A stretch of DNA of 36,677 nt from Planctomycetota bacterium (GTDB taxonomy: Bacteria; Planctomycetota; Planctomycetia; Gemmatales; Gemmataceae). The notes beneath the pieces are model-generated. The model made no database searches. It was not told the DNA's origin and saw only the letters and a program-made list of their open reading frames with translations. The position numbers were made by a program, and so were the translations under genes. The stretch is taken from contig JAKBCS010000040.1 in the NCBI GenBank assembly GCA_021807595.1, positions 1 through 36,677 of the forward strand. Direction: 5' to 3'. Below are positions 4,888-34,014 of the stretch, piece by piece (position 1 is the first letter of the stretch; the number at the start of each line of letters is the position of its first letter).

Positions 4888-5292
4888 ATGGACAAAGTAC
4901 ACAAAAGCGATGAGGAATGGAGTTCATTGCTGACGGACAAACAGTACAAGGTGGCGCGCCGCAAGGGTACGGAGCCGGCGTTCGACAACGAGTATTGGGA
5001 CAACCATGCAGTCGGCGTTTACCGCTGCGTCTGTTGCGGTCTGCCGTTGTTCGACGCGGCGACGAAGTTCGATTCCGGCACGGGCTGGCCGAGTTTTTGG
5101 ACGCCGTTGGAAAACGACCGCCTTTCGCTGCACGAGGATCGCGGCTGGTTCATGGTTCGCACCGAGGTTTGTTGCAGCCGATGCGACGCACATCTGGGTC
5201 ACGTTTTCGACGACGGCCCCCAGCCGACGGGTCTGCGTTACTGCATGAACTCCGCCGCCTTGAAGTTCGAGCCGCGCGAAGAGAGACCGTAG
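4888..5292 (+). CDS. msrB: Peptide-methionine (R)-S-oxide reductase
   Basis: MsrB reduces the R-form of methionine sulfoxide in oxidised proteins. The 134-residue product has the whole family pattern: two zinc-binding CxxC pairs (C47/C50 in CVCC and C96/C99 in CSRC), the GTGWPSFW core, [10 protein letters not shown], and the catalytic cysteine C119 in RYCMNSAAL. There is no signal peptide, so it should act in the cytoplasm. TTGGAGGAG at 4875-4882 is a strong ribosome binding site for ATG 4888. The gene lies 26 bases after the sulfite reductase and is probably cotranscribed with it. Its stop lies five bases from the stop of treY on the opposite strand, so the two transcripts converge and must overlap or end inside one another. 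No hairpin is seen in that gap. Confidence 0.95.
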
Positions 5293-5297
5293 ACGAT

Positions 5298-8200
5298 TCA
5301 AGATGCCGTCGCATCGATAGCGATGCTTTCGGCGGCGTCGAGCAGCAACGCCACCGGGAAACGAGCGAATACCCGAGCCGCCGAGAGTGCGGGTCGGCCG
5401 AGATGCTCATCCGCCGTAAACTTCTCCCCCGTAAACAACGAATACCACGTTCGATCCGCCAACTCTTCCGGCAGGGGTAGCAGTGTCTCACCCCAGATTG
5501 CCGAACCGCACGGATCTATCGCCGGATTCGCCAACATCGTCGCGATCCGGCGCGGCGCGGCAACCACGGCGGTTCGATCGCGATGACGGCGAACGAAGCT
5601 AAAAACGTGATCCGCCTGGACGCCCACGGGTTCGACAGGGAGATAGCCTCCGACCGAGAACAGTCCCGGATGCGCGCGGCGGCAGCGCAGCGCCAAGGCC
5701 GTGAGGTAGAGCTTGATTCGCCCGTCGGCGATCGTTTCCATCAATTCGTCCGCCAACCCACCGCGCGCTTGCATCGGAGCCGCGCGTTCGAGCAAGTCGC
5801 TCAACCACCGCCGCCGAATCTCGTAATCGACGGAACGGCGATTATCCGGATCGACCAAACGATAATCCCACAGCTCCGTCCCCTGATACGAGTCCGAGAC
5901 ACCCGGCGCGGTGATTTTGAGCAGACATTGCGATAGCGAATTGAAAAAGCCATAGCGGCCAATCGTTCGCTGGAACGGGAGAAAAGCGTCGAGAAACGGC
6001 TTCCCAGCGACGGGATCGAGAACGCGACCCACGAACAGTCGCAATGCCTGGTCGTAATCGGCATTGGGATTGATCCAACTGGTATGCACCTTGGCTTCGT
6101 GCGTCGCCTTCTCCATGTACGCCTGAATGCGGCCAATAAACTCGGCATATTCTTCGTCGGCATACGGTTCGACGGGCCAGGAACCCAGCAGCGTTTGATA
6201 CAGCAAATACTCGACATTGCGATCCGGAGCTTTGTCGTCCTCGACTTGGACGCGATGCGCTTCGTTGAGCGCGCTCCACCGATGAAGGCACTCGCGCCAG
6301 GCTTCGGGCATCTCGGATAAGACGGAAATGCGCGCGCGGACATCTTCGCTTCGTTTGGTATCGTGCGTCGAAGTTGCCGAAAAGGCGCGCGAGCAGTGTT
6401 GTTGTCGGGCGGCGAAGTTTTGATGGACGGCGGCCGGCGCATATCCGAAATGAGTCGGATCGCCGCCGACTTCGTTGAGCGAGGTCAGGCGATTGAAGAC
6501 GTAAAACACCGTGTCTTCCAGTCCCTTGGCCGTGACCGGCGACGTTACCTGCTGAAATTGACCGGCGAAACGCTGTTGCTCGGCGAACTCCTCGTCGTCG
6601 CCGCGATCGTCGCGTCGCAACAATAGCACGTTGCGCAAGAACTGAAAGTGCGATCGATTGAGGGTCGGATTGCGCTTGCGCGCTTCGCGGATAGCGGCGT
6701 CGAGATATTTGCGATCGTCGTCGTGGACCGTGCAGTCGGCGATATAGGAGCGATAGACGGGAAAGCAAGCCACCACCTCGCGGAGAACGCGGCGGAGGCT
6801 GTGGTGCGTGAAATCGCGCGATGCACGCCGCCGCTGCGCCAAGCGATCCAAGGCCAGCGACAACATCTGCAATTCGCTGGAAAGAGATAGCTGTAGTATC
6901 AAGAGTTTTTTTTGATACACCAACTCCGAATACGGCGTGTAGTCTTCGATCCACTCGCGGTACAGGGTTGTGAAGGCGCGCGCGCCGGCCGGATCGACAA
7001 ACAGGCCACCCAAGACGTTGAGAAATTCGTAACCCGTCGTGCCATGGACGGGCCAATCGCCCGGCAACGACTCGCCCTCGCCGAGGATCTTCTCGACGAC
7101 GACGTAAAGCGATCGATCCGGCATGGCCCCCGAGTCGATACGCGCCAGCACCGGCTCCTCCAGTTCGCGCCATTCGACGCGGTGATATTTTGGATTGGAG
7201 TAGTAGATATGACGGGCCAGTTCTAACAGGTAATGGCGCTGTATACGCCGTAAATACTGCCGGGGATTGAAGAGACCATCGGGATGATCGATGCGAAGGC
7301 CATGGATTTTTCGCTCCCTCAACTGTTGTAGGATCAATCCGTGCGTGGCAAGGAAGACCTCGGGGAGTTCCATGCGCAGCGCGGCCAATTCGTTCACATC
7401 GAAGAAACGGCGATAATTGATCTCATCGGAAGCCACCCGCCACGACGACAGACGATAGGCTTGTTCGTCGAGCAGTTGCTCCAACAAATCGAAACTGTGC
7501 GAGTCTCCCGGTTCGCCGTTGTAGTGCGCGACGACAGCCAAGAGATGCTCGCGCACCTCGGCGCAGGTTTCGGTCAGCAAAGCGAGCCGGCGTTTGATGA
7601 CTTCCTTCTCACGCTGGCGTTCGGCGATGCGCTCCACGCTGGTCTCGGCGCGCGACGGCAGGTTGCGCAGCGCGGTAAGGATGCTCTGATACTCCTGAAA
7701 GTGTGGCGAATCCTTGCTCATCGCCCTCTCTAGTTCGTCGAGATCGCGATGCAGGATGCCGCCCCAGGTGCAGGGGGCCACGGGCAAGCGGTGTTCGAAA
7801 TAATGCAGGGTGAAGGTACCGCTTTCGTAGCGGAGTTGGATTTGGCCCGCTTCGAGGACCTGTCCGTAGGGTTCGCCGAGCAATGGCAACAGCACGCGAT
7901 CGCGCAGAGCGGGACGCGGCGACGCTTGCCAGGCGATGTCGAAATAGTTGGCATAGGGCGACGAGGGCCCGTTCTCCAGTATGTCGTTCCACCATTTGTT
8001 CTCGTTGCCGACAATCCCCATGTGATTGGGCACGACATCGAGAATTTGACCGAGATCGTGGAGACGGAGCGCCGCGATGTAGGCGGCGTAGGCGGAATCG
8101 CCGCCGATTTCCGGATTGAGAAGCCGATGGTCGAGAACGTCGTAGCCGTGCGTGCTTCCGGGTCGAGCCTTTAGATAGGGCGAGGCATAGACGTGGCTGA

Positions 8201-8360
8201 TGCCGAGGTCGTGCAAGTAGGGAGCGAGACGAGCGGCGTCTTGGAAAGTGAAACCGGCGTGGAATTGGAGACGATAGACGGCTTCGGGCGAACACCGTCG
8301 CGCGGCGGCCTCACGTTCCACATCGGATAACAGATCGGTCAGGACATCGTCGTTCGTCAT
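5298..8360 (-). CDS. treY: Malto-oligosyltrehalose synthase (GH13)
   Basis: TreY turns the reducing end of maltodextrin into a trehalose unit by intramolecular transglycosylation. It normally works with TreZ, which releases trehalose. Start ATG 8360 has GAGGAG six bases upstream; the open frame continues another 121 codons upstream, but that part is low-complexity repeat DNA. The 1020-residue product has all four GH13 regions: DVVPNHM (residues 108-114), GLRIDHPDG with nucleophile D358, VVVEKILGEGE with acid/base E423, and STHDTKRSED with D667. The N-terminal YRLQFHAGFTF and YASPYLKARPGSTHGYD are typical TreY signatures. It is longer than many family members (about 700-800 residues). No treZ, treS or glgX is in the window, so any partner must be elsewhere. 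A terminator-like hairpin precedes the ribosome binding site. Confidence 0.95.
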   Translation of the reverse strand: MTNDDVLTDLLSDVEREAAARRCSPEAVYRLQFHAGFTFQDAARLAPYLHDLGISHVYASPYLKARPGSTHGYDVLDHRLLNPEIGGDSAYAAYIAALRLHDLGQILDVVPNHMGIVGNENKWWNDILENGPSSPYANYFDIAWQASPRPALRDRVLLPLLGEPYGQVLEAGQIQLRYESGTFTLHYFEHRLPVAPCTWGGILHRDLDELERAMSKDSPHFQEYQSILTALRNLPSRAETSVERIAERQREKEVIKRRLALLTETCAEVREHLLAVVAHYNGEPGDSHSFDLLEQLLDEQAYRLSSWRVASDEINYRRFFDVNELAALRMELPEVFLATHGLILQQLRERKIHGLRIDHPDGLFNPRQYLRRIQRHYLLELARHIYYSNPKYHRVEWRELEEPVLARIDSGAMPDRSLYVVVEKILGEGESLPGDWPVHGTTGYEFLNVLGGLFVDPAGARAFTTLYREWIEDYTPYSELVYQKKLLILQLSLSSELQMLSLALDRLAQRRRASRDFTHHSLRRVLREVVACFPVYRSYIADCTVHDDDRKYLDAAIREARKRNPTLNRSHFQFLRNVLLLRRDDRGDDEEFAEQQRFAGQFQQVTSPVTAKGLEDTVFYVFNRLTSLNEVGGDPTHFGYAPAAVHQNFAARQQHCSRAFSATSTHDTKRSEDVRARISVLSEMPEAWRECLHRWSALNEAHRVQVEDDKAPDRNVEYLLYQTLLGSWPVEPYADEEYAEFIGRIQAYMEKATHEAKVHTSWINPNADYDQALRLFVGRVLDPVAGKPFLDAFLPFQRTIGRYGFFNSLSQCLLKITAPGVSDSYQGTELWDYRLVDPDNRRSVDYEIRRRWLSDLLERAAPMQARGGLADELMETIADGRIKLYLTALALRCRRAHPGLFSVGGYLPVEPVGVQADHVFSFVRRHRDRTAVVAAPRRIATMLANPAIDPCGSAIWGETLLPLPEELADRTWYSLFTGEKFTADEHLGRPALSAARVFARFPVALLLDAAESIAIDATAS

Positions 8361-8370
8361 AACGCTCCTC

Positions 8371-8454
8371 AAAAAAGAAGGCGGCGCGCAACGTGGCGCG
8401 GGCAGTCCGTTCGGGAGCGGCCGAACGGGCTGCCCGCGCCACGTTGCGCGCCGC
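8371..8454 (-). terminator. Very long hairpin plus T-tract in front of treY
   Basis: On the minus strand, arms 8454-8421 and 8414-8381 pair over 34 bp with one mismatch (a possible G-U pair at 8406) around a 6-base loop. They are followed by CTTCTTTTTT (8380-8371) and immediately by the GAGGAG ribosome binding site of treY. A GC-rich stem plus T-tract is the classic intrinsic terminator layout. It could end transcripts coming from the upstream sugar kinase or act as an attenuator in the treY leader. The arm is unusually long for a plain terminator, so it may also be an inserted palindromic repeat. Confidence 0.7.
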
Positions 8455-8465
8455 GCCCAATATGA

Positions 8466-8471
8466 ATTATA
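8466..8471 (-). promoter_or_regulatory. Candidate -10 box for treY
   Basis: A perfect TATAAT reads on the minus strand at 8471-8466 in the only AT-rich patch of the spacer. No good -35 match lies 16-18 bases upstream. If used, transcription would begin just before the long hairpin, which would then lie in the treY leader RNA. Confidence 0.3.
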
Positions 8472-8510
8472 ACCGAATCCCGCAAATCCGGCATACCCTA
8501 TCCCTGGTTC

Positions 8511-8564
8511 GCCGCGGGGCGGAGCGGAGCGCGGGATCCACGGCACTCCGCCACGCGCCGCGGC
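8511..8564. repeat. Intergenic inverted repeat
   Basis: GCCGCGG (8511-8517) and GGCGGAG (8518-8524) are mirrored by CTCCGCC (8546-8552) and CCGCGGC (8558-8564), with a short bulge in the right arm. This gives a GC-rich stem-loop. It is the middle of three consecutive stem-loops in the 395-bp spacer between treY and the sugar kinase gene, in which no gene is supported. Confidence 0.5.
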
Positions 8565-8621
8565 AATCCATGCGTGGCCGCTGGAAAAGCAAGCACGAAA
8601 CGCTGGAACGGAGAAATCTCC

Positions 8622-8742
8622 TCGTACCCAGGCTCCGCATCGGAACGCAAGCCTTGCCGCTCCGCGCCGCGAGAGACGAGACGCTAAGGAGGGGACGCGG
8701 AGCGTCCGGACGTGCGTTCCCACGCGGAGCCTGGGAACGAGA
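8622..8742. repeat. Inverted pair of CTCGTTCCCAGGCTCCGC-type repeats
   Basis: The segment beginning CTCGTACCCAGGCTCCGC (from about 8626) and the reverse complement of the segment ending near 8742 (CTCGTTCCCAGGCTCCGC) match almost base for base. The similarity continues through GGAACGCA and a GCTCCGCG block. Such 'gttcccag...ctgggaac' units look like a dispersed intergenic repeat family, and two copies facing each other give a MITE-like or hairpin structure. No transposase is associated. The rest of the spacer holds no supported gene. Confidence 0.55.
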
Positions 8743-8755
8743 ATAAGAAAAGCAA

Positions 8756-9658
8756 TTAGAACGTCAGCATGTTGCGATATTCCTCGAAACGGCGGTCGAT
8801 CTCGCTCCGGTCGGTGCGTTTAAGGCGATCCAACCCGAAACCCTCAACGATCAAGCCGCCGATCACCGTTCCATAAGCCATGGCCCGACGCAGCCCGCTC
8901 GTTGTCGGGACGGCGGACGATTCGCTCAAATGTCCCAGCACGCCGCCCGCGAAGGCGTCTCCGGCTCCCGTCGGATCGAGAACCTCCGCCGACGGATAGG
9001 CCGGCGCGACGAAGACGCCTTCTTCACTGAACAGCATGGCACCGTGTTCGCCCTTTTTAAGGACGACGAACTTCGGTCCCAACCTGCGCACGGCAAAACC
9101 GGCCTTCACGAGATTCGCTTCGCCGGTCAACTGGCGCGCTTCACTGTCGTTGAGCATCAAGCCGTCCAACCGCGGCAGCAGCGCGAGCAGATCGTCGCGT
9201 TGCGTGTCGATCCACAAATCCATCGTGTCGGCAAAGACGGCTTTCGGCTGACGGACCTGCGCCAAAACGCGCGCCTGCAAGGTCGGGCTGCCGTTGGCGA
9301 GAAAGACGTGTGAACTGTCGCGGAATCGCTCCGGCAAGACCGGATCGAACGTGCCGAACACATTCAAATGTACTTCGAGAGTGTCGCGCGAGTTCATATC
9401 GGCGTGATAGCGGCCCTTCCAGCGAAAGGTTTCGCCCTTGGCCTCGGTCAGTCCCGCCGTGTCGATGCCGCGCGAGGCGAACAACTCGCGGTGTTCGTCG
9501 GGGAAATCCTGACCGACCACCCCGACGAGGCGCGGTTGCGTGAAGAAACTGGCGGCCATCGAGAAGTGCGATGCCGAACCGCCGAGGATGTTCTCCGCGA
9601 CGCCGTTGGGCGTCTCGATAGAATCGAACGCGATGGAACCGACTACGAGTAAAGACAA
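8756..9658 (-). CDS. PfkB/ribokinase-family sugar kinase
   Basis: The 300-residue product is a PfkB-family kinase that phosphorylates a sugar or nucleoside with ATP. Visible signatures are the N-terminal SLLVVGSIAFDSIETP strand, the substrate-binding GGSASHFS region near residue 30, and the C-terminal DPTGAGDAFAGG with catalytic base D234. The substrate cannot be told from sequence. The most likely start is TTG at 9658: it opens exactly at the family's first beta strand and has AGAAAGG eight bases upstream. An ATG at 9700 would add 14 residues and has no clear ribosome binding site; the still longer open frame runs into the MaoC gene. The MaoC-like gene ends 67 bases upstream on the same strand, so both may share a transcript. 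Confidence 0.85.
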   Translation of the reverse strand: MSLLVVGSIAFDSIETPNGVAENILGGSASHFSMAASFFTQPRLVGVVGQDFPDEHRELFASRGIDTAGLTEAKGETFRWKGRYHADMNSRDTLEVHLNVFGTFDPVLPERFRDSSHVFLANGSPTLQARVLAQVRQPKAVFADTMDLWIDTQRDDLLALLPRLDGLMLNDSEARQLTGEANLVKAGFAVRRLGPKFVVLKKGEHGAMLFSEEGVFVAPAYPSAEVLDPTGAGDAFAGGVLGHLSESSAVPTTSGLRRAMAYGTVIGGLIVEGFGLDRLKRTDRSEIDRRFEEYRNMLTF

Positions 9659-9725
9659 TGCTTGCACCTTTCTGGAGCTTAATCCCACCCGGCAACCCAT
9701 GGGACAGGTTCGCCTAATTGGCGGC

Positions 9726-10244
9726 TTACTTGGCCGGTTCGCCGGTGGTCTGCGGCACGGAGGGCAGTTCGAGAGAATTGGTATCTCCGCGTCCTCCCCG
9801 CGCTTCGACAAGCGTGATGGTAATTCCCTCTTGCACGACTTTCCGTTCTTGGTTGAGAATCTGCCGCTGCCAAACGATCTCGCCACGCCGACCGCGACCG
9901 CGCGTCTCTTTCTTCAGTATTTTCGTGATCACCCGCAGGGTGTCGCCGATAAAGACGGGACCGCGAAAGTGCCATTCGCTAATCTGGAGGAAAGCGAGCG
10001 TTCGCATCGGAGGACTGTACAACCCCAAGCCGCTGGCGATGGAAAACACGAGCAAGCCGTGAGCGATGGGACGGCGGAACGGCGTGGCGGCGGCAAATTC
10101 GTGGTCGATGTGAATGGGGTTGAAATCGCCGCTGATTCCCGCGAAGTTAACGATCTCGGTTTGTGTGATCGTGCGGCCAAGCGATTCCCATTCTTGACCG
10201 ATTTGCACGTCCTCAAAGTAGAAGTGAGCGGGTGTAAACGACAT
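9726..10244 (-). CDS. MaoC-like hot-dog dehydratase/hydratase
   Basis: The 172-residue protein belongs to the MaoC/(R)-specific enoyl-CoA hydratase group. The hydratase motif is clear: GISGDFNPIHIDHEFA with the Asp-Asn-x-x-His pair, followed by FRRPIAHGLLVFS, where the hot-dog helix ends. Known members hydrate trans-2-enoyl-CoA or related thioesters. The physiological substrate here is unknown. ATG 10244 has AAGGAAAA upstream and starts with the usual 'yFEDvqIGqew' segment. The open frame extends 90 codons further upstream, but this part overlaps the likely control region of the divergent export operon and is not typical of the family. The sugar kinase gene lies downstream on the same strand. 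Confidence 0.88.
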   Translation of the reverse strand: MSFTPAHFYFEDVQIGQEWESLGRTITQTEIVNFAGISGDFNPIHIDHEFAAATPFRRPIAHGLLVFSIASGLGLYSPPMRTLAFLQISEWHFRGPVFIGDTLRVITKILKKETRGRGRRGEIVWQRQILNQERKVVQEGITITLVEARGGRGDTNSLELPSVPQTTGEPAK

Positions 10245-10352
10245 GGTCGTTTTTCCTTGCGCCAACCGTAACGGATACTCTCCCATCCCAATTTTACTGA
10301 ATTGTAGAGCCTCCGAGCAAGCCCCCTTTGAATCGACTCCGCCCCGGAGTTC

Positions 10353-10374
10353 ACTTCCCAATCTTTTGGGAAGT
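10353..10374. promoter_or_regulatory. Perfect dyad upstream of the exporter operon (possible operator)
   Basis: ACTTCCCAA, a 4-base spacer and TTGGGAAGT form a perfect 9-bp dyad 60 bases before the HlyD start codon and 109 bases before the divergent MaoC start. Its symmetry and place fit a repressor binding site, although an RNA hairpin is also possible. No regulator gene is nearby. A similar TTCCCA-N7-TGGGAA dyad lies after the operon at 17236-17254. Confidence 0.4.
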
Positions 10375-10434
10375 CGATACCTTGGACAGCGGCGGCAACG
10401 ACGCCCGGTTCTCATCGAAAGAAAAGACAAAGCC

Positions 10435-11478
10435 ATGAAGACGCGCGTACTGCGATTGTCGCTTTTGGTGATGTTGTTGGCGACGGTCGGAGGTGGTTCC
10501 TGGTGGTGGAGCAAGATCTATCGGGAGACACCCGCCGACGACTTGATCCTGTTTGGCAACGTGGACATCCGCGACGTGCAGTTGGCGTTCAACCAGAGCG
10601 ACCGCATCGATTCGCTTCTGGTGAAAGAAGGCGACCGCGTCTACGAAGGCCAATTGCTGGGCGTTTTGGACGCGCGCCGCCTCAAGGCCGCCGCCGACAA
10701 AGCCGAGGCTCAGGTCCAGGCACAGAGGGAAGTCGTCGCCCGACTGGTGAACGGCACCCGGCCCGAAGACATTCGCAAAGCGCGCGCCGATGTGGATCTG
10801 GCCAATGCGGAGCTAGAGAACGCCCAGCGAACTGCCGCGCGAAAGAAGGCGTTGGCCGAACGGAAAGCCGGTTCGCAACAGGAAGCCGACGACGCCCGCG
10901 CTGCCGCCTCCACCGCGGCGGCTCGACGGGCGGCGGCGCAGGCCGTTCTCGATTTGGCAATTGCCGGACCTCGAAAAGAGGATATTGCCGAGGCCCGCGC
11001 ATCGCTGCAATCCTTGGAAGCGCAACGCAACCTGGCTCGCATCGAATTGGCCGACGCTTCGCTCCACGCCCCCAAAGCTGGCATCGTTCAGGATCGCATC
11101 CTCGAACCGGGGGACATGGCTTCGCCGCAAAAACCCGCCTTCACCCTGGCGATCGTCGATCCGGTTTGGGTGCGAGCCTATGTCGCCGAACCGGACCTGG
11201 GAAAGCTCTCGCTGGGCATGACGGCCGAGGTCGAGACCGACAGCTATCCCGGCAAACGCTATCGAGCTTGGATCGGCTTTATCTCGCCTACGGCGGAGTT
11301 TACTCCGAAGTCGGTGGAGGTACGCCAACTGCGAACGCGGCTGGTTTATCAGGTTCGCGTTTTCGTTCACAATCCGGACGACGAGTTGCGGTTGGGCATG
11401 CCCGCGACGGTTCGCGTTCCTCTCGATCGACCGCGTCCCACCACTAAGCCGTCCAACTCCGAGTTGCCCCAGCCATGA
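10435..11478 (+). CDS. HlyD/YbhG-type membrane fusion protein of an ABC exporter
   Basis: This 347-residue periplasmic adaptor links the inner-membrane ABC transporter to the outer-membrane channel. An N-terminal signal-anchor (LRLSLLVMLLATVGGGSWWW) is followed by a barrel-sandwich half (GNVDIRDVQLAFNQSDRI, VKEGDRVYEGQLL), a long Ala/Glu/Arg-rich coiled-coil hairpin (about residues 85-205, with many heptads), the second lipoyl half (LHAPKAGIVQDRILEPGDMAS) and a C-terminal beta-barrel. The order is that of YbhG/HlyD_D23 proteins. ATG 10435 is chosen because it opens the anchor; the longer frame upstream runs through the intergenic region. The stop overlaps the next start (ATGA at 11475-11478), so translation is probably coupled. 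Confidence 0.9.
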   Translation: MKTRVLRLSLLVMLLATVGGGSWWWSKIYRETPADDLILFGNVDIRDVQLAFNQSDRIDSLLVKEGDRVYEGQLLGVLDARRLKAAADKAEAQVQAQREVVARLVNGTRPEDIRKARADVDLANAELENAQRTAARKKALAERKAGSQQEADDARAAASTAAARRAAAQAVLDLAIAGPRKEDIAEARASLQSLEAQRNLARIELADASLHAPKAGIVQDRILEPGDMASPQKPAFTLAIVDPVWVRAYVAEPDLGKLSLGMTAEVETDSYPGKRYRAWIGFISPTAEFTPKSVEVRQLRTRLVYQVRVFVHNPDDELRLGMPATVRVPLDRPRPTTKPSNSELPQP

Positions 11479-13292
11479 CACCTTCCGCCCTGGCCACGCC
11501 CTCCGGCGGCGCGCCGGAGGAGGCGATCCTGGATTTTCGCCGCGTTCACAAGACGTTCGGAGGCGGTAAACGGAGGATTCCCGCGCTTCGCGGAGTCAAC
11601 CTGCAAGCGCGGCGCGGGCGCATCACCGGACTCATCGGTCCCGACGGCGCGGGCAAGACCACGCTCCTCCGTTTGGCGGCGGGGCTGCTGGAACCGGATG
11701 AGGGAACAATCCTCGCGCTCGGCATGGACGCCACGACCGAATCTTTAGCCGTCCAGAGTATTCTGGGCTATATGCCGCAGCGGTTTGGACTGTACGAGGA
11801 CTTGACGGTCGGCGAGAACTTGAACCTCTACGCCGACCTGCAACGCGTTCCGCGCGCCGACCGGGCGGAGCGTTACCGCGAACTGATGCACATGACGGCG
11901 CTGGCTCCCTTCATGGACCGTCTGGCCGGCAAACTCTCCGGTGGGATGAAACAAAAGCTCGGCCTGGCCTGCACCCTCATCCGCAGCCCGCGTTTGCTCC
12001 TCTTGGATGAGCCGACCGTCGGCGTCGATCCCGTCTCGCGTCGAGAACTGTGGGAGATTGTGAACCGTTTGGTTCACAAGGAAGGCGTAAGCGCGTTCGT
12101 CAGCACCCTGTATCTGGATGAAGCCGAGCATTGTCACGAGGTGGTCATTCTCCACGAAGGCGAAGTGTTGGGGCAAGACGCGCCGGCAGCTTTCAGCACG
12201 GCTCTGCGCGGCCGCGCCTGGACGGTTCAAATTGCCGGGCGGAAACCGCGCTCCATTCAATCTCGTCTCGCCGGTGCCTCCGGCGTGGTCGATGCCGTTG
12301 TCCAAGGAGAGCGCGTGCGTCTGGTTCTGGAAGAAGGGGCCGATCCTCGAATCGTGGGGGCTTCCGCTGGACTCGATGGCGTGGAATTCACTTCGGTGCC
12401 GCCTCGCTTCGAGGACGGATTCATCGACCTGCTGCGAAAGCGAATCGCGCCGGCGAACGGATCTCGGAGCTTGGAACGCTCGACTCTCGACGCCCCACCG
12501 ATTCAAGACGCCTCCGCCCCTCGTTCGGAAAATCGCGCGGCGATCGAGGTGCATAATCTCGAACGGCGTTTTGGCGACTTTTACGCTGTCAAAAATCTGA
12601 CGTTCTCGGTGGAGCGCGGCGAAGTGTTTGGCCTATTGGGTGCCAACGGCGCGGGGAAATCGACCACCTTTCGCATGTTGTGCGGGCTGTTGTCTCCCAG
12701 CGGCGGGTCGTTGAGCGTCGCCGGCGTGGATACGCGCAAAGCGGCGGCGGCGGCGCGGGCGCGATTAGGCTACATGTCGCAAAAGTTCTCGCTGTACGGC
12801 AATCTCAGCGTCGCGCAAAACCTGCATTTCTTCAGCAGCGCTTATGGGCTATCCGGTTCGCGCCGCGCTGCGCGGCTTGCCTGGGCGCTGGAACAGTTTC
12901 AACTTACCCCCTACGCCGACGCCTCCAGTTCCGAATTGCCCCTGGGCTACAAGCAGCGTCTGGCTCTGGCCTGCGCGCTGATGCACGAACCGGACATTCT
13001 TTTCCTGGACGAACCGACTTCCGGGGTCGATCCGCTGGCGCGGCGAGAGTTTTGGCAGCGCATCAACGAACTGGCGGAGCGCAGCGTGACCGTGTTGGTG
13101 ACGACGCATTTCATGGAAGAAGCCGAGTATTGCGATCGGCTGGCCATCATGGCGAGCGGACAACTCTTGGCATTGGGATCTCCGTCCGACATCAAACGGC
13201 GAGCCGCGACCCCGCGATGCCCGGAACCGGACATGGAAGAAGCGTTCATTTACCTCATCGAGAACGACTCCAAGCGAGGAGCGGGGCCATGA
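11475..13292 (+). CDS. ybhF: Duplicated ABC transporter ATPase (YbhF type)
   Basis: The 605-residue protein contains two complete nucleotide-binding domains in one chain. The first has Walker A GPDGAGKT (K61), signature LSGGMKQKL and Walker B LLLLDEPTVGVDP. The second, from about residue 355, has Walker A GANGAGKST (K395), a degenerate signature LPLGYKQRL, Walker B ILFLDEPTSGVDP and a switch histidine in TTHFMEEAEYC. The switch position of the first domain is not histidine (VSTLYLDEAE), so the two sites may not hydrolyse ATP equally. That two-domain architecture with a following pair of ABC-2 permeases is characteristic of YbhF. It overlaps both neighbours by ATGA and sits in the middle of the export operon. 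Confidence 0.92.
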   Translation: MTPSALATPSGGAPEEAILDFRRVHKTFGGGKRRIPALRGVNLQARRGRITGLIGPDGAGKTTLLRLAAGLLEPDEGTILALGMDATTESLAVQSILGYMPQRFGLYEDLTVGENLNLYADLQRVPRADRAERYRELMHMTALAPFMDRLAGKLSGGMKQKLGLACTLIRSPRLLLLDEPTVGVDPVSRRELWEIVNRLVHKEGVSAFVSTLYLDEAEHCHEVVILHEGEVLGQDAPAAFSTALRGRAWTVQIAGRKPRSIQSRLAGASGVVDAVVQGERVRLVLEEGADPRIVGASAGLDGVEFTSVPPRFEDGFIDLLRKRIAPANGSRSLERSTLDAPPIQDASAPRSENRAAIEVHNLERRFGDFYAVKNLTFSVERGEVFGLLGANGAGKSTTFRMLCGLLSPSGGSLSVAGVDTRKAAAAARARLGYMSQKFSLYGNLSVAQNLHFFSSAYGLSGSRRAARLAWALEQFQLTPYADASSSELPLGYKQRLALACALMHEPDILFLDEPTSGVDPLARREFWQRINELAERSVTVLVTTHFMEEAEYCDRLAIMASGQLLALGSPSDIKRRAATPRCPEPDMEEAFIYLIENDSKRGAGP

Positions 13293-27613: not shown

Positions 27614-27819
27614 AAATCTCCAACAGTGGGGAGCGATCCGAATGCCGCCAGCGATTTCTCGGCCAACTCGCGATTGGCTTCGAGAACCAAGGCGACGGCC
27701 TCGCGGAGATTCTCTCGTGCTTCCTCCAACGTATCCCCTTGGCTATTCGCCCCCGGAAGCTCTTCGACAAAAGCGATGTAGCCTTCCGGAACCTGCATGA
27801 AGATAGCGGTTAGTTGCCT
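27559..27819 (-). pseudogene. Decayed hicB antitoxin copy
   Basis: From the internal Met codon at 27798, 46 of the first 51 residues equal those of the intact HicB encoded at 29636-29854 (MQVPEGYIAFVEELPGAN, then EEARENLREAVALVLEANRE). Upstream, the seven preceding codons also match, but the start codon position reads AGG (27817-27819) where the intact gene has ATG, and the GGAG site is not conserved in place. Beyond residue 51 the sequence has nothing in common with the intact copy and reads into a foreign tail. No hicA follows. This is best read as a duplicated hicB fragment that has lost its start, its C-terminus and its toxin, although translation from the internal Met (79 residues) cannot be excluded. 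Confidence 0.7.
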
Positions 27820-29639: not shown

Positions 29640-29854
29640 GGCGTGGCCACGTCGAAAGGTTCACGAATCACCGTTTGGCCCGCCAGCGCTTCTTCGGTCA
29701 ATTCGCGGTTGGCTTCGAGAACCAAAGCGACGGCCTCGCGGAGATTCTCCCGTGCTTCTTCCAGTGTATTTCCCTGGGTGTTCGCCCCCGGAAGCTCTTC
29801 GACGAAGGCGATGTAGCCTTCTGGAACCTGCATGAAAACGGCGGTTAGTTGCAT
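29636..29854 (-). CDS. hicB: HicB-type antitoxin
   Basis: This 72-residue protein has the partial RNase H-like fold of HicB: MQLTAVFMQVPEGYIAFVEE, then LPGANTQGNTLEEA and the helix RENLREAVALVLEANRE. The short version carries no clear DNA-binding domain at the C-terminus, which is typical of the smaller HicB group found in cyanobacteria and planctomycetes. ATG 29854 is chosen because GGAG lies nine bases upstream and the beta strand begins there; an upstream in-frame ATG at 29881 would overlap that site. It overlaps hicA by four bases. The gene has a decayed near-identical copy at 27559-27819. The zinc-ribbon membrane gene lies 23 bases upstream. Confidence 0.85.
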   Translation of the reverse strand: MQLTAVFMQVPEGYIAFVEELPGANTQGNTLEEARENLREAVALVLEANRELTEEALAGQTVIREPFDVATP

Positions 29855-33841: not shown

Positions 33842-33936
33842 GATCTGCGTCTCCTGGTGCCTTGGGATCGATCCTCACGCGCCTGCACCATGTTGAACGC
33901 GCGAGAAATGGGAAACCGTAAGCGATTATCAACTTC

Positions 33937-33999
33937 GGTTAGACGCGACGTGCAGACGAGCGCGTTGCTCTCGCGCTCCGCTGCGCGTCGCGGCTAGCC
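33937..33999. repeat. Long imperfect inverted repeat, dispersed type
   Basis: Segment 33937-33962 (GGTTAGACGCGACG...) and the reverse complement of 33974-33999 (GGCTAGCCGCGACG...) match over 26 bases with a few differences and an 11-base centre, giving a long stem. The right arm, read on the minus strand, shares TAGCCGCGACGCG with the repeat at 26203. It lies in the 173-base gap between the SUMF1 gene and the Gfo/Idh/MocA gene and may be a mobile palindromic repeat. It could also terminate the transcript coming from the Gfo/Idh/MocA promoter region in the reverse direction. Confidence 0.5.
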
Positions 34000-34014
34000 G
34001 GCTAACGTACTTCC

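Follow-up and report, generated by a model that had tools for sequence, protein, structure and literature searches.

The E. coli ompA leader is a 5'-terminal stem-loop that acts as an mRNA stabilizer, and a stem of about 34 bp, such as the one described here before treY, far exceeds the length that a 5'-terminal stabilizer needs. TreY functions in the synthesis of trehalose, which is an osmolyte. E. coli betT and proU are controlled via RNase III, for which the available portion of one report gives a minimum stem of 22 bp (PMC4067347). At the DNA level, template switching is described, in the available portions of two reports, as inverting hairpin loops and as perfecting or homogenizing their stems (PMC8794818, PMC8604942). 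Our literature search turned up neither a paper about a hairpin in a treY leader nor one about leader stems in planctomycetes, by which we do not claim that none exists, and the available part of PMC13155455 does not mention planctomycetes.

The treY leader analysed here lies in a window, by which we mean the whole analysed stretch of 36,677 nucleotides (contig JAKBCS010000040.1), from a planctomycete of the Gemmataceae (genome G000). Like the ompA leader, it places a stem a few bases from the predicted 5' end of the RNA and a ribosome site after that stem, in a genome that encodes an RNase E/G-type enzyme; it differs in that the stem is about 34 bp long, the host belongs to another phylum, and the 5' end of the treY RNA is a predicted one. 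With the RNase III-controlled osmotic mRNAs of E. coli (betT, proU, and bdm, as far as the available portion of PMC4067347 describes them) it shares a long double-stranded stem, an osmolyte-related gene, and an RNase III gene in the genome. This parallel is suggestive only, and unlike those mRNAs, the long treY stem is not kept in two congeners (G001 and G002) and cleavage here is only a candidate event. The near-perfect arms and a loop that is inverted between close relatives resemble the template-switch hairpins in the available parts of PMC8794818 and PMC8604942. In contrast to those hairpins, the treY arms reach 34 bp, compared to up to 16 bp for yeast arms (PMC8604942), and the element is a bacterial leader, whereas the published cases seen there concern rRNA, microRNA, and yeast coding DNA. 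Finally, a GC stem with a T-rich tract right after it is the layout of an intrinsic terminator or attenuator, but this element sits between the probable -10 box of treY itself and the treY start, and its T-tract is not conserved.

The locus reads on the minus strand and is compact, with 114 bases in all carrying, in succession, a TATAAT motif (8466-8471), the hairpin (8381-8454), the T-tract CTTCTTTTTT (8371-8380), the Shine-Dalgarno-like GAGGAG (8365-8370), and, after CGTT, the treY ATG (8360-8358), 4 nt from GAGGAG. The hairpin consists of 34-nt arms (8381-8414 and 8421-8454) that are complementary at 33 of 34 positions (97%) around a 6-nt loop, and 11 bases separate TATAAT (8471-8466) from its start at 8454. 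The contiguity of this stem, the T-tract, and GAGGAG had been noted in the sequence-only reading and is confirmed here; the TATAAT motif named there is likewise present, upstream of the hairpin in the direction of treY. It is the probable -10 box of treY, with no good -35 element found; scanning 5200-12000 for promoters did not reveal a complete sigma-70 site. The treY gene (5298-8360, minus strand) encodes a malto-oligosyltrehalose synthase of 1020 amino acids, identified by a match to TIGR02401 of 949 bits compared to a cut-off of 498.65. Its frame is also open upstream (8361-8723, minus strand), across the hairpin and as far as a GTG at 8723. This longer frame is not conserved in the sister species G003, which has an in-frame stop at -99; the more probable start is therefore the ATG at 8360. 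In six relatives (L012, L013, L014, L017, L020, and L021), treY was contained in a single open frame of 1831-1902 amino acids that extends about 490 codons upstream in frame, which suggests a fused upstream enzyme.

The upstream neighbour of treY is a PfkB-family sugar kinase gene (8756-9886, minus strand; PF00294, E 7.9e-25). Between it and the treY promoter, outside the leader, lies a dispersed palindromic repeat (8621-8741, no strand assigned) of the form CTCGTTCCCAGGCTCC ... GGGAACGAG, a related copy of which occupies the same spot in G003. A query with 8600-8745 returned at least 65 match rows in its own genome (the best 40 of 100 candidates being scored), some of these rows being both strands of one palindrome. 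Elsewhere in the window, a direct repeat of 173 nt (27645-27817 and 29680-29852; 87% identical, 2035 bases apart) was found.

The hairpin before treY is real and unusual. Folding of 8350-8480 (minus strand) as RNA yielded -86.9 kcal/mol compared to -51.6 (sd 3.8) for shuffled sequences (z -9.2; 0 of 200 as good) and one dominant fold, in which the T-tract can in addition pair with the GAGGAG site (CUUCUU/GAGGAG). The plus strand of 8375-8460 folded as single-stranded DNA with a z of -11.4. In a G000 sample of 466,841 bases (the window and 23 further stretches), the ungapped stem score of the treY hairpin was 31, compared to a best score of 12-14 in five dinucleotide shuffles of the same bases. 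The sample as a whole contained 48 stems scoring at least 12, each shuffle 1-3. The treY hairpin is not its longest palindrome, which is a perfect 45-bp arm of simple C-/G-run composition (L076:3342-3442). Among the 31 TATAAT sites of the sample, the next best stem after that of treY (31) scored 13, and treZ (C108) showed no long stem within 300 bases before its match and no TATAAT in its stretch. The treY stem therefore looks like an isolated case, found at 1 of 31 TATAAT sites and not before treZ, rather than a system or a general leader design. In 8200-8800, Rfam gave 11 matches with an E of 1 or lower, all of them under the gathering score. A rule-based terminator scan of 5200-12000 found 6 terminators compared to 8.3 expected; the treY stem was absent from this list, probably because the scan counts 20 pairs at most.

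Searches for further copies placed the hairpin at its own position alone, on both strands, in a genome that is 95.5% complete. Among the matches listed for 59 related genomes, with no more than 15 candidates scored in each, the only full-length one was in G003 (83% over 114 bases), at the same position before a treY whose product is 94% identical in amino-acid sequence. At least 54 of the 59 relatives had some hairpin match at E up to 1; among the matches listed outside G003, these were short and partial (best E 7e-4), and no full relative was seen by eye at 22 places viewed (18 in relatives, 4 in G000 or G003). A looser pattern of the hairpin core occurred at 42 places in the genome, about the chance level given by a reversed control (38), and nothing in the viral_contigs set matched an 18-base core exactly. 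The sequence-only reading would have counted as its refutation a plain mobile repeat, missing before treY in close relatives and copied elsewhere. That absence was found, in two of the three other congeners (G001 and G002), but a second copy in the genome was not. A mobile repeat of the REP or MITE-like kind was thus rejected, given a single place in the genome and one orthologous copy in G003. By contrast, about 13 of 19 other long palindromes, a set that excludes the treY hairpin and its G003 orthologue, could be assigned by eye, without clustering, to families that recur, among them GGTTAGCCGCGACGCG and CGGAAGCGTAAGCGACGG. Palindromes with arms like GGTTAGCCGCGACGCG were recognized by eye in the window at 33936-34000 and in L065, L067, L073, L080, L081, L085, L090, and L091, and are mostly intergenic by crude gene calls.

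We compared four congeners (G000, G001, G002, and G003; treY amino-acid identity to G000 79% in G001 and 78% in G002). TATAAT lies 78-105 nt before the treY ATG in all four; the frequency of the motif in the sampled G000 sequence is 0.0034 per 100 nt per strand, and 32,923 bases of G001 and G002 contain it 6 times, both strands counted. The kinase gene adjoins treY in G003 and was not found in about 16.8 kb upstream of treY in G001 or about 2.5 kb upstream in G002. Since 4/4 congeners have TATAAT, whereas G003 is the only one of the three relatives in which the kinase was found next to treY, treY probably possesses a promoter and start of its own. In three of the four (G000, G003, and G001), a stem starts 11 nt after TATAAT, an offset that in G003 counts its outermost pair. 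The G001 stem (17 bp, 2 mismatches) is unrelated in sequence to the G000 hairpin and is not followed by a T-tract; a stem as good and as early arose in none of 1000 shuffles and one as good anywhere in 1 of 1000, and the fold had a z of -1.7 for the whole leader and of -4.0 when folding was confined to a segment selected to surround the stem. The G002 leader had no convincing stem (566 of 1000 shuffles reached its best; z -0.1 for the leader and -1.3 for a chosen piece), and no stem with a T-tract was seen in it. In G003, GAGGAG is unchanged and the T-tract is the weaker CTTCGTTTTG, with a tail score of 2.80 compared to 3.36 in G000. What three of these four leaders have in common is a stem close to the predicted 5' end rather than a terminator. 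The wider set comprised 34 treY loci, or 31 after removal of three that repeat G001-G003; one of the 31 (L016) lacks upstream sequence, and two (L023 and L024) have less than 260 bases of it. Long stems (score at least 19) preceded treY in 2 of the 31 and TATAAT in 4, and stems scoring 12-16 lay further upstream in L008 (-240), L010 (-110), and L134 (-224).

We compared 33 stem pairs between G000 and G003, omitting the innermost of the 34 owing to an insertion in G003. Watson-Crick pairs number 32/33 in G000 and 28/33 in G003, and on the mRNA-sense strand G003 keeps 32/33 standard pairs (28 Watson-Crick and 4 G-U). The two species differ at seven pairs. At one of these both bases have changed, G000 having G-C and G003 T-A; at four, G003 has G-U on the mRNA strand; and at the remaining two, one species has C-A where the other has C-G, the C-A belonging to G000 at one pair and to G003 at the other, which lies near the stem base. 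Of the six non-Watson-Crick pairs over both species, four are sense-strand wobbles and two are wobbles of the opposite strand, a bias toward the mRNA strand that is not significant by our own reckoning. Divergence of the stem (8/66) did not differ significantly from that of treY fourfold sites (89/505; p 0.30). Thus, purifying selection on the stem letters was not detected, and sequence does not demonstrate a function. From 25 nt before TATAAT to the ATG, 112 of 137 aligned columns are identical in the two species, compared to 161 of 293 in the upstream spacer, gaps being counted as differences in both; the spacer is a poor yardstick because the dispersed repeat lies inside it. Reverse-complementing the G000 loop and adding one base gives the G003 loop; the alignment score of the two loops is 111 inverted and 95 direct. 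This two-species comparison therefore contains the loop inversion that marks template-switch hairpins. The arms, with one mismatch in G000 and 5/33 non-Watson-Crick pairs in G003, suggest homogenization, which in two species could have run in either direction. Template switching during replication probably gave rise to the palindrome or made it near-perfect again, and probably also flipped the loop in one of the two sister lineages.

Our preferred, if tentative, interpretation is that the feature is a lineage-specific 5'-terminal stem-loop of the mRNA of treY itself and not an inter-operon terminator; most likely, the hairpin is of a known kind of 5'-end stem-loop rather than a terminator switch. 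Because TATAAT lies upstream of the hairpin, the RNA of treY would begin with it. Transcription would start a few bases after TATAAT, and the RNA would then present in order a few free bases, the 33- to 34-pair stem, a U-rich stretch of about ten bases, and the ribosome site followed by the ATG. By concealing the 5' end, the stem may protect the RNA against 5'-end-dependent decay through the encoded RNase E/G-type enzyme, and the length of the stem makes it a candidate substrate of RNase III; either route would set the lifetime of the treY mRNA. The stem probably affects that lifetime in one of these two ways. Genes for both enzymes are present, RNase III with 213.7 bits compared to a cut-off of 166.25 and RNase E/G with a match over the cut-off. 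The latter match (G000:C247:36109-38403) is split within a single frame into two parts, separated by about 1 kb and covering profile positions 1-68 and 78-415, which suggests a large insertion in the N-terminal part of the protein. A search with TIGR00649 ('MG423'), which we take to be RNase J, gave a single match, far under its cut-off.

An unlikely but appreciable alternative is that the palindrome plays no part in the expression of treY and is a by-product of template switching in a palindrome-rich genome, one that the leader tolerates while it decays. Its absence from two of the three other congeners, a stem divergence not significantly unlike that of fourfold sites, a loop inversion that shows DNA-level events shaping the palindrome, and the excess of stems scoring at least 12 in the sample over the shuffles all agree with this alternative. 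It accounts less readily for a single-copy hairpin where, by eye, about 13 of 19 other long palindromes belong to recurring families, for its fixed place after a common TATAAT, and for the unrelated stem that G001 has in the same place. An improbable version of control at the RNA level would make the stem an RNase III site, such that treY output tracks RNase III activity, for instance under osmotic stress, as for E. coli betT and proU. RNase III is encoded, TreY acts in the synthesis of an osmolyte, and the 33-34 nearly perfect pairs (34 bp, 1 mismatch) exceed the 22-bp minimum given in the available portion of PMC4067347, as does the G003 stem if G-U pairs count. The imperfect 17-bp stem of G001, however, is below that minimum, and the osmotic control described in that portion concerns E. 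coli. We consider it more doubtful still that both levels are joined, such that the leader palindrome sets treY post-transcriptionally, as a gate for RNase III or for decay from the 5' end, while template switching keeps rebuilding and flipping it, a mutational process that would maintain a regulatory stem despite sequence turnover.

Two further alternatives take the T-tract as a stop signal. Attenuation, which the sequence-only reading had put forward, would have most transcripts from TATAAT end at the T-tract as an RNA of about 85 nt unless some signal permits read-through into treY. The GC-rich stem is followed directly by CTTCTTTTTT, whose tail score (3.36) is the fourth best of the 48 sampled stems, but this arrangement was not conserved: the T-tract is weaker in G003 (2.80) and absent after the G001 stem. 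In addition, the modelled stem is so stable that it would leave little room for a competing fold, and no leader peptide was seen by eye. Attenuation could operate here but found little support, and we hold it to be quite improbable. The same reading had offered that the kinase transcript is stopped here while treY has its own start. The second half of that proposal gained support from the TATAAT shared by the congeners, but the first half did not: TATAAT lies on the kinase side, so the RNA of treY itself must pass the hairpin. That the kinase gene is followed, in its own orientation, by a stem and T-tract would suit a terminator of the kinase transcript; yet these elements come only some 300 nt after the kinase stop, past the common TATAAT in the direction of treY, where they would stop the treY RNA too, and in the congener stretches searched (about 2.5 kb upstream for G002) G003 alone has the kinase next to treY. 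A kinase terminator is therefore highly improbable.

If the stem does not work in treY expression, the locus is a caution that a long stem with a T-tract is not necessarily a terminator or a switch. If it does work, it would place a planctomycete trehalose gene under the control of a 5'-end RNA stem and would offer, in a bacterial leader, a visible instance of template switching maintaining an RNA hairpin.
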